Of a DNA stretch of 64,000 nucleotides, positions 17,868 through 32,782 are shown one piece after another. How positions within the stretch are numbered: the stretch's first letter is position 1; each line of letters opens with the position of its first letter. The notes under the pieces were generated by a model. It had not been told where the DNA came from and ran no database searches. It was given only the letters and a program-made list of their open reading frames with translations. Made by a program: the position numbers and the translations under genes. The DNA is from Companilactobacillus pabuli (GTDB taxonomy: Bacteria; Bacillota; Bacilli; Lactobacillales; Lactobacillaceae): NCBI RefSeq assembly GCF_014058425.1, contig NZ_CP049366.1, positions 682,001 to 746,000 of the forward strand, written 5' to 3'.

Positions 17868-18050
17868 TTGGTGTAGGATATCGTCGTCCGTTCTGCTTTG
17901 TGGATGCTGGAACGTACTGGGCACAACTTGAAGCTAATTCCAGAACCGGGAATCATCTCCAAGCTTGACCTTTTACTAAGCGATAAATCGCTAAGTAAAA
18001 TTTCAGTACTGAGCGTCCACAAAGCTGCCACTACCGACTGAATAACGACA
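17868..18050 (+). repeat. Family A structured repeat, copy A1
   Basis: Helices seen: P1 17895-17908 with 18012-18025 (GCTTTGTGGATGCT with a complementary arm, one G-T), P2 17914-17919 with 18004-18009 (GTACTG/CAGTAC), an irregular P3 about 17927-17963 capped by CCAGAACCGGG, and P4 17971-18000 (TTTTACT...AGTAAAA with an inner AGCGAT hairpin). Unpaired conserved blocks are GGAAC, GGCAC, CTTGACC and ATTT. Nearly the same sequence occurs inverted at 32560-32745, and a diverged copy keeping the fold is at 32245-32430. It lies right after the MFS gene and could also be its 3' end. Confidence 0.85.
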
Positions 18051-18061
18051 TTTATTTTTTT

Positions 18062-18190
18062 CTCAAGTAAATCAAAATAGCATCAATTCAGATATGGTCG
18101 ATTAACTATTTATCTGAATTGATGCTTATTTGTTTGGTCATAAAGATATAGAACCACTGAGCTAATTTTCTTTGCTATGGAGGATGGGAA
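18062..18190 (-). repeat. Family B repeat, copy B2, with a remnant of family A
   Basis: Arms AGCATCAATTCAGATA (18079-18094) and TATCTGAATTGATGCT (18111-18126), followed by the inverted flank (TATTTGTTTGGTCATAAAG...ATAG). Read on the - strand it has the same order as B1. From 18157 the sequence ACTGAGCTAATTTTCTTTGC matches the closing part of family A copy A2 (32386-32406) with one change, then TATGGAGGA matches the complement of A2's opening flank; a piece of a second A module is thus fused here. The remaining bases to 18310 hold only the ribosome site region of the antiporter gene. Confidence 0.8.
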
Positions 18191-27198: not shown

Positions 27199-27267
27199 TA
27201 TATCTAGATTCTATTTTGTAATGAAAAAACTTTGACTATTTAAAAAATTCTTTCTTAAGTAAATAAA

Positions 27268-27372
27268 AAATTGCATCAATTCAGATATATAGTCGATTAA
27301 CTATTTATCTGAATTGATGCTTATTTGTTTGGTCATAAAGATATAGAATCCTAAACTAACCTAATTTAATAA
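27268..27372 (-). repeat. Family B repeat, copy B3
   Basis: Arms GCATCAATTCAGATA (27273-27287) and TATCTGAATTGATGC (27306-27320), then the inverted flank TATTTGTTTGGTCATAAAG...GATATAGAATCCTAAACTAAC. Read on the - strand, the upstream part (GTTAGTTTAGGATTC) matches the segment that precedes family A copy A2 at 32246-32260, but here the A module is absent and the flank joins B directly. This is the cleanest view of an empty site. Between NadD and the convergent permease. Confidence 0.85.
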
Positions 27373-27393
27373 AGAACTTTAAGTCAAAGTTTT

Positions 27394-30416: not shown

Positions 30417-30504
30417 AAAATCCTCCCTTATAAATACTTCTCTATTGTACTTTACATTTGGTATGAAAATATGCTACATTTAAGAAAATCAATATGAATA
30501 ATAT

Positions 30505-30768
30505 TAGAAGAAGGAGTACTGTATACTTTATCCACAGGGAGTTAAGGCAAGTGAAAACTTAACGTGTCGGTATATAGGAAAAACATCTTCGTTATTTCTG
30601 GCTGAAATGCGTCTTTAAAAGTAGAGTAGGTACAGACGTGACCCAATGCGTTACAATTGGAGAGTATATTTATGTACTTTGAGGTGTTTTTTTAAAAAAA
30701 CTTGGGTGGTACCGCGGAAAAGATCTTTCGTCCCTTTTATTAGGGATGGAGGATCTTTTTTTAGTTTA
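30505..30768 (+). promoter_or_regulatory. T-box leader of asnS
   Basis: The T-box bulge GGGTGGTACCGCGG is at 30703-30716. Behind it is the terminator: AAAGATC-TTTCGTCCCT pairs with AGGGATGGAGGATCTTT, then T-run to about 30762. Stem I begins with GAAGA/TCTTC (30507-30511 with 30586-30590) and includes the AGGAGTA k-turn-like motif. Adjacent to the base helix is AAC at 30582-30584 followed by A, the expected place of the specifier triplet; AAC is an asparagine codon and fits the downstream asnS. Uncharged tRNA-Asn should promote read-through. The specifier position is inference. Confidence 0.9.
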
Positions 30769-32198: not shown

Positions 32199-32240
32199 AA
32201 ATAAAGAACTCAGAAATTAATTTTTCTGGGTTCTTTATTA
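32199..32240 (+). terminator. Terminator of asnS
   Basis: AAATAAAGAACTCAGAAA pairs with TTTCTGGGTTCTTTATT. A related diverged sequence (AAGAACC...GGGTTCTTTTTT) recurs at about 32748-32780 behind the repeat block. Confidence 0.88.
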
Positions 32241-32244
32241 AGTT

Positions 32245-32430
32245 AAGCTAGTTTAGGATTCCGTCCTCCATAGCAAAGAAAATTTGGCTGGAACGTAGTG
32301 GGCACGATTTTGAGCTTTTGCAAAGTACGCAAAATCTCAAAACTCGGCCTTATTCTAAGCAACAAGTTGCTAAGAATAATTTCACTACTGAGCCAATTTT
32401 CTTTGCTATTCCGGACTAGATTGTGGTTTC
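32245..32430 (+). repeat. Family A structured repeat, copy A2 (diverged, fold kept)
   Basis: P1 AGCAAAGAAAATTTGGCT (32272-32289) pairs with AGCCAATTTTCTTTGCT (32391-32407), quite different from P1 of A1/A3 but equally paired. P2 GTAGTG (32295-32300)/CACTAC (32383-32388) where the others have GTACTG/CAGTAC. P3 TTTTGAG...CTCAAAA (32308-32342) with a TTTTGC/GCAAAA extension. P4 TTATTCT/AGAATAA (32350-32379) with AGCAAC/GTTGCT inside. Conserved unpaired blocks GGAAC, GGGCAC, CTCGGCC, ATTT. Directly followed by the B4 hairpin in the same orientation, giving a complete A+B composite. Confidence 0.87.
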
Positions 32431-32527
32431 TATTTTTATGGAATCAAACAAATAAAGCATCTATTCAGATAATAGTCGCACACACACATAGTAAGCGACT
32501 ATTTCTGAATAGATGCTATTTTTGACT
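32430..32527 (+). repeat. Family B repeat, copy B4
   Basis: Arms AGCATCTATTCAGATAATAG (from 32456) and its complement CTATTTCTGAATAGATGCT (to 32517), loop with a short CA repeat. Compared with B1-B3, CAATTC/GAATTG became CTATTC/GAATAG: a matched change on both arms. Preceded by the usual flank (AAACAAATAA) and by the A2 module. A 76-codon reading frame across A2/B4 (32298-32525) is an artefact of the repeats. Confidence 0.85.
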
Positions 32528-32559: not shown

Positions 32560-32745
32560 TATCTAGTCGGGAGTGGCAGCTTTGTGGATGCTCAGTACTG
32601 AAATTTCACTTAGCAACTTGTTGCTTAGTGAAAGGCCAAGCTTTAAGACAGTTCCCGGTTCTGGAATTGACTTAAAGTTGTGCCCAGTACGTTCCAGCAT
32701 CCACAAAGCAGAACGGACGACGGCAGCTTAACACCAACCCAACTT
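32560..32745 (-). repeat. Family A structured repeat, copy A3 (inverted, close to A1)
   Basis: Read on the - strand it follows A1 almost base for base over 180 nt. P1 GCTTTGTGGATGCT/AGCATCCACAAAGC is fully paired (A1 has a G-T). P4 is TTTCACT/AGTGAAA where A1 has TTTTACT/AGTAAAA, and the inner hairpin is GCAAC/GTTGC where A1 has GCGAT/ATCGC, so each difference is matched on both arms. Placed head-to-head with A2/B4 in a 500-bp gene-free stretch. The rest up to 32886 holds a terminator-like hairpin and the promoter region of the VOC gene. Confidence 0.87.
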
Positions 32746-32782
32746 AAGAAAGAACCTTAATTTTTCCGGGTTCTTTTTTACT

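Follow-up and report, generated by a model that had tools for sequence, protein, structure and literature searches.

A stretch of 64,000 nucleotides from Companilactobacillus pabuli (RefSeq assembly GCF_014058425.1, contig NZ_CP049366.1, positions 682,001 to 746,000 of the forward strand), here called the window, contains three copies of a structured repeat, family A, which an earlier note on the sequence had placed at 17868-18050, at 32245-32430 and, inverted, at 32560-32745, and which do sit at these places. The note had left a choice between a selected RNA fold and a mobile palindrome kept by its transposition machinery. We find that the copies are parts of a larger composite of about 500 bp, which runs from a terminal inverted repeat through an arm, a central hairpin and an inverted arm to a second terminal inverted repeat, with the two types of copy, A1 and A2, being the two arms of one composite, mutually inverted around the central hairpin. 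We propose, with a probability of roughly 0.7, that a non-autonomous mobile element inhabits the chromosomes of Lactobacillaceae and that family A represents its arm. The proposal draws on the covarying fold of the arms, their convergent pairing, the terminal repeats of the composites in this genome, the target duplications, a preference for hairpin loops, the absence of composites from divergent gaps and an orthologous locus that is free of the element.

Structure of the composite

The limits of the arms are those given by a covariance model, R1, and window coordinates are own-genome coordinates less an offset of 682000. Composite 1 has an arm of type A1 on the forward strand (17894..18025; 129.6 bits, E 1.0e-32), which comprises the stems P1 and P2, the junction, P3 and P4 and folds locally, followed by a central hairpin, H (18080..18125), whose inverted repeat arms were located and which has a homologue between the arms of composites elsewhere. 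Its second arm, of type A2, is a remnant on the reverse strand (18160..18189) that can be aligned to the outer end of A2 arms from complete composites. Composite 2 begins with a left terminal inverted repeat on the forward strand (32229..32250; 19/22 consensus positions match), followed by an A2 arm on the same strand (32275..32404; 130.2 bits), the central hairpin with its inverted arms (32457..32516), an A1 arm on the reverse strand (32579..32710; 126.3 bits) and a right terminal inverted repeat, also on the reverse strand (32735..32756; 20/22 positions). On its left lies one copy of the target duplication, TTAATTTTTCTG (32217..32228), within a terminator-like hairpin of asnS, and on its right the other, TTAATTTTTCCG (32757..32768), the two being direct repeats with one mismatch. 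The third composite of the window (27246..27379), located between convergent reading frames, is a deletion derivative that has lost both arms and retains the terminal inverted repeats and the central hairpin.

The same arrangement is found well beyond the window. Among neighbouring arms less than 1 kb apart in the own genome (n=30), 28 pairs are convergent, 2 tandem and 0 divergent, and in 80 loci fetched from named records of relatives the corresponding numbers are 48, 4 and 0, all 52 sequences being distinct. The composites of the own genome are bounded by GGTTCTTTCTTAAGTTAGG and its inverse, for which there are 31 matches with at most 3 mismatches, compared with 1 in the control. Many own-genome copies are broken; 50 of the 108 arms have no scored partner nearby, and in several cases a deletion remnant of the partner survives.

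Several individual loci depart from this plan. At four of them (L045, L052, L057 and L059) internal deletions in the A1 arm, as judged by eye, have removed P3 and P4 and kept the outer-stem sequence, and these resemble what slippage across a DNA hairpin would give. At L024 and L025 (1.768 and 2.182 Mb of the own genome) the A1 arm is split by a stretch that holds a diverged A2-type arm, so that one composite seems to have inserted into another. In a relative, G003, diverged-type arms surround an alpha/beta-hydrolase-like gene at L092, seen by eye in the order arm, gene, arm, inverted arm; this frame thus lies between two arms of the same direction, and a gap at L161 holds a short frame of unassigned kind. 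No transposase that would mark an autonomous or cargo-bearing version was recognised by eye in four loci and the four longest gaps, in which no family search was made.

Fold, covariation and occurrence of the arm

The arm is about 130 nt long. P1, which varies in length and sequence, is followed by an internal loop, GGAAC/TG, and by P2 of 6 bp, beyond which P3 and P4 both leave a junction; P3 has two bulges, one of them an A, and P4 is made of 7 bp and 5 bp with an A-A mismatch in between and is closed by ATTT. A further short stem and a TCC/TCC loop are visible by eye outside P1 in many copies. The pairs of P1 to P4, the unpaired blocks and the A-A mismatch that had been described for the window copies are all present in them, and the fold is recovered when each of the three is folded singly. 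One caveat is that the whole window composite pairs arm with arm in its minimum-energy fold, and that energy folding gave a mostly local joint fold in only 28 of 43 arm pairs from the fetched relatives. We considered a conserved arm-to-arm pairing of the whole composite and rejected it; it is energetically possible, but the outer stems of the arms differ while the local stems covary. The local arm fold is backed by covariation, not by energy.

Covariation was assessed first in an alignment of 44 distinct copies, from which the covariance model itself was built. In this alignment 94.2% of cells are paired and both sides change in 30 of the 39 pairs, and in none of 500 shuffles did the proportion of cells paired, the count of doubly changed pairs or the covariation score come up to the observed value, although one further measure, the number of further pair types (63), did so in 62 of the 500. 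When the partner was shifted by 1-3 columns pairing fell to at most 45.2%. The covariance model search and covariation test that the earlier note had suggested lead to the same result in a much larger alignment, for which 275 aligned rows were reduced to 258 with few enough gaps and then to 153 non-redundant ones, and where the paired columns also served to build the tree. Here pairing exceeds the tree-based null: 36 of the 39 pairs lie above all 60 simulations of their own columns, and 30 lie above the largest of all simulated null values.

In the own genome there are at least 55 BLAST matches with copy 1 (the best 40 of 82 candidates having been scored) and at least 49 with copy 2 (the best 40 of 108), and the covariance model finds 108 arms with E up to 1e-4, at 78 separate loci. 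Within the genus 34 of 36 genomes match, giving a total of at least 1,770 matches and a per-genome count that ranges from 0 to at least 89. Within the family matches were obtained in 82 of 301 sampled genomes and 14 of 40 genera, of which one (g24) rests on a single weak match of 3.8e-6, and the same junction occurs in copies from other genera. A sample of the class (398 genomes, searched with stricter filters and, as listed, including few other Lactobacillaceae) matched in the own genome alone. A DNA pattern made from the conserved blocks matched at least 120 stretches in named genomes, and the 80 matches listed come from Companilactobacillus, Levilactobacillus, Lactiplantibacillus, Lacticaseibacillus, Schleiferilactobacillus, a Candidatus Limosilactobacillus and several records of Lactobacillus sp.

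The fold corresponds to no known RNA class as far as Rfam 15 is concerned, in agreement with the earlier note, since none of the copies reaches the gathering score of any family and a permissive search of the surroundings of copy 1 returned only sub-gathering scores. The only Rfam matches in the window at the gathering score are a T-box and a tRNA, both away from the copies. The T-box leader, at 30494-30738 (96.7 bits), lies upstream of the asnS-like gene.

Insertion sites

Duplications of about 7 bp flank the terminal repeats of many composites. For 13 sites, being a set of 16 less the poorly resolved L025, L066 and L069, the two flanks match on average at 5.77 of 7 positions, compared with 3.42 for mispaired flanks; for 28 candidate sites that were detected automatically, several of them visibly mis-paired, the means are 4.61 and 3.20, a difference that 0 of 3000 shuffles reach. 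In ten of the 16 well-resolved sites at least 6 of the 7 positions match.

Rejoining the flanks placed the point of insertion inside a hairpin loop, on a stem of at least 6 pairs, at 9 of the 16 sites tested; these 16 are the ones, out of the 28 candidates, at which both repeats match at 14/22 or more. The criterion also admits many mispaired flanks, which in 300 trials gave 3.2 of 16 on average and never more than 8; against the background of 4,372 intergenic window positions, 10.7% of which qualify, the p value is 1e-5.

At the asnS site a relative, G001, has an intact terminator-like hairpin in which the target sequence occurs once and there is no element, and G008 also has the hairpin, in a contig that stops 108 bases further on. 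The composite is present in the opposite orientation in G005 and a single arm is present in G006, so that arms occur at 3 (own, G005 and G006) of the 30 asnS loci fetched, out of 34 matching genomes, 4 of the 30 extending less than 400 bases past the gene. Gene context, judged from open frames of at least 100 amino acids for 33 of the 48 convergent pairs in the relatives, is also uneven: 27 pairs lie between tandem genes, 6 between convergent genes and 0 between divergent genes, compared with 63 divergent gaps among 313 in the same loci (p 6e-4).

These observations bear out the mobile half of the choice left by the earlier note, in that there are terminal inverted repeats, target duplications, insertions into hairpin loops and an ortholog without the element. 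At least some copies have jumped into the loops of gene-end hairpins.

DNA or RNA

When a G-C pair of an RNA helix evolves into A-U, or the reverse, the intermediate is often G-U, which reads as A-C on the opposite strand. In the 153 non-redundant rows the arms have 97 G-U and 158 A-C among 5,893 cells, an imbalance with a binomial p of 1.6e-4 whose counts are concentrated in few columns; without pair 44-83, at which both are common in the 44-copy alignment, the numbers are 65 and 121. In an earlier set there were 61 G-U and 80 A-C in 3,477 cells. The control was six T-boxes of the same genome (6 of 10 alignments, among 23 T-boxes found), which have 31 G-U and 10 A-C in 277 cells; the earlier set differs from these with a Fisher p of 3e-4, and G-U makes up 1.7% of standard pairs in the arms compared with 12% in the T-boxes. 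Thus, the excess of G-U over A-C expected of an RNA selected in one polarity is absent from these 5,893 cells. Because G-U is rare and falls below A-C, unlike in the T-box control, the constraint is on Watson-Crick pairs and does not favour the strand on which the fold was first described, the complementary strand being if anything more wobble-tolerant. Folded with DNA parameters, 128 of the 136 arms are also more stable on the complementary strand, by a mean of 4.1 kcal/mol, and folded with RNA parameters 89 of them are, comparisons that are not independent as the arms share the same loops.

The arm fold therefore looks as if it is kept in DNA, as a hairpin or cruciform, and not in one RNA strand. 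It should be said that RNA folding from both strands, or self-correction of the palindrome by template switching, would give the same DNA-like symmetry.

Template switching would make the pairing a product of mutation and not of selection: in quasi-palindromes one arm of a stem then serves as the template for rewriting the other, and wobbles are erased. Rare G-U pairs are what it predicts, as are rare one-sided changes, and changes of one side only to a standard pair occur in 19 of 1,710 cells, 11 of them at a single pair; internal deletions are also present in the arms. However, the GGAAC/TG and TCC/TCC loops are conserved in an unpaired state, as is the A-A mismatch, where self-correction should tend to pair them, and the same junction occurs in other genera. 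We regard this explanation as unlikely.

A structured RNA would be an arm transcribed from the upstream gene and acting as a stabiliser of the 3' untranslated region, a processing site or a protein-binding RNA. Strong covariation together with conserved unpaired blocks is what such an RNA would show, its location at gene 3' ends, with 0/33 between divergent genes, would fit, and equal RNA folding on both strands would also yield the symmetry between them. Against this, G-U is rarer than A-C where the T-boxes display the RNA pattern, any transcript would meet one sense and one antisense arm in each composite, and promoters are in no clear excess, promoter-like sites in the two composite regions numbering 2 and 4 against a shuffle mean of 2.3 in each case. 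We also considered, and set aside, a promoter or terminator belonging to the composite itself, there being no such excess and no terminator by scan. Accordingly, of the selected RNA fold that the earlier note had envisaged, the strong maintenance of pairing stands and the RNA does not find favour, and we consider a structured RNA quite improbable.

Chromosomal position

All 108 arms of the own genome lie on the chromosome contig, C1, and 58 of the 78 loci fall in the half of the chromosome centred near 2.29 Mb. This position, where GC skew turns from negative to positive, is taken for the origin, which was placed from a coarse GC skew of the stretches analysed after the uneven spread of the loci had been seen. 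dnaA is not at the start of contig C1, as far as the first 4 kb show, and a DnaA-box-like motif has 5 matches in the window, with as many in 6 of 100 shuffles. While the chromosomal location and the concentration around the inferred origin might suggest that the composites are domesticated, their spread being old and their present role that of bidirectional terminators or chromosome-organising sites, the presence of arms at so few of the orthologous asnS loci (3/30), the variation in copy number within the genus and the many broken copies in the own genome make this very unlikely.

Search for a driving enzyme

If the composites move, they would presumably depend on an enzyme encoded elsewhere, and two candidates were tried. 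A Y1 transposase of the RAYT (REP-associated tyrosine transposase; REP, repetitive extragenic palindrome) kind was rejected, as a search of the own genome with PF01797 (E up to 1e-3) gave 0 matches. The resident insertion sequence (IS) of the ISL3 family, the sole IS family examined, has eight chromosomal copies with ends that begin GG(C/T)TCT; over the first 15 positions one end shares 11 with the terminal repeat and the other 8. An ISL3 derivative would have an 8-bp duplication and matching ends, but the ends differ over the rest of their length, and the composite has a duplication of about 7 bp where the IS has 8 bp in 8/8 chromosomal copies; we rejected it as the driver. Separately, the composites at L063 and L069 (2.394 and 1.978 Mb of the own genome) directly adjoin a TnpB/OrfB-like gene of the IS605 type, recognised by eye.

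A number of results weigh against a mobile element. No driving enzyme was identified among the Y1 and ISL3 families, so that of the palindrome kept by its transposition machinery it is the mobility that is supported and the machinery that was not found; the partial agreement with the ISL3 ends, taken over 19 positions, is no better than that of chance places in the same loci. Plasmids and phages gave no match at the sensitivities used, which is unusual for an active mobile element. The terminal repeats are seen by eye in other Companilactobacillus and not in Levilactobacillus, hence this part of the description may not hold family-wide. At six of the 16 well-resolved sites no more than 5 of the 7 positions match, the signal for an 8-bp duplication is weak (p 0.07, 13 sites), and the direct repeat at composite 2 is 12 bp and not 7, which means either that the length of the duplication is variable or that this site was later altered. 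Finally, a terminator scan returned none in the two composite regions, although it missed the asnS hairpin too and so says little.

Proposed mechanism

We nevertheless favour a mobile element, and suggest how it might work. The arms would act as DNA hairpins or cruciforms, and an enzyme encoded elsewhere would recognise their shape together with the conserved unpaired bases (GGAAC/TG, TCC/TCC, ATTT and the A-A mismatch). Its target would be the loop of a second hairpin, in most cases a terminator, and there it would insert the element. Insertion into terminator loops may do little harm, and the central hairpin could replace the function of the terminator that the insertion has split. It is possible, and we offer this only tentatively, that the composites represent a new class of structure-guided mobile DNA, with Y-shaped hairpin ends that are read by shape and not by sequence, which moves via single-stranded or cruciform DNA and targets hairpin loops by means of an enzyme not yet tied to such elements.

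Relation to known systems

The composite resembles miniature inverted-repeat transposable elements (MITEs) in being short, in having no gene of its own that we could see, in its many intergenic copies and deletion derivatives, and in its terminal inverted repeats (the 31 matches against 1 in the control) and target duplication. It is unlike them in its two covarying branched arms around a central hairpin, in a target that is often a hairpin loop and in that no autonomous partner was identified. The ends of ISL3, the one IS family compared, agree with those of the composite in part.

Integron attC sites vary freely in sequence, keep a hairpin with extra-helical bases and have one DNA strand that folds better than the other. 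The arms are similar in their free sequence variation, kept hairpin and better-folding strand, and differ in their three-way junction and in being paired and convergent. The terminal repeats of the adeno-associated virus (AAV) type form Y-shaped terminal hairpins and are comparable to the arms in size, shape and inverted orientation; this is an analogy of shape only and, unlike in AAV, no replication protein or virus was seen with the composites.

The REP families GTAG and CGTC, and REP dimers, are described in a survey as extragenic, downstream of genes and high in copy number, with inverted dimers and structured spacers (PMC3733652). The composites are alike in being extragenic, gene-downstream, high-copy inverted dimers with structured spacers. 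Of 138 arms, 98 have a CCGNC motif in the 5' flank, compared with 3 in the control, and this motif is reminiscent of the CGTC tag of REPs as it appears there (PMC3733652). Yet REPs, in the same account, are palindromes of 20-40 bp (PMC3733652), whereas the arms are about 130 nt long with a three-way junction; thus inverted extragenic dimers are found here, and the single 20-40 bp palindrome and the Y1 transposase (0 matches to PF01797) of a REP/RAYT system are not. The string 'lactobacil' is absent from the main text of the survey (PMC3733652), and Lactobacillus johnsonii appears in a table of stem-loop clusters in another source (PMC2267715). In the literature covered, which leaves subscription journals largely outside, we found no description of such a lactobacillus repeat, nor of a matching MITE, terminator-loop insertion or bcr1-like element.

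Significance

Rfam 15 lacks this fold of about 130 nt, which is matched in 14 of the 40 genera sampled from an important family of bacteria and which this genome carries as 108 arms. The fold brings a caution, which is that covariation alone is no proof of RNA, and the balance of G-U and A-C helps to distinguish a fold kept in DNA from one kept in RNA. The composites offer a test of how elements can target hairpin loops. Moreover, the arms would allow DNA secondary structure to be studied in vivo as a natural experiment, in which the 1,770 or more matches within the genus could reveal the stems that admit change and the unpaired bases that resist it.
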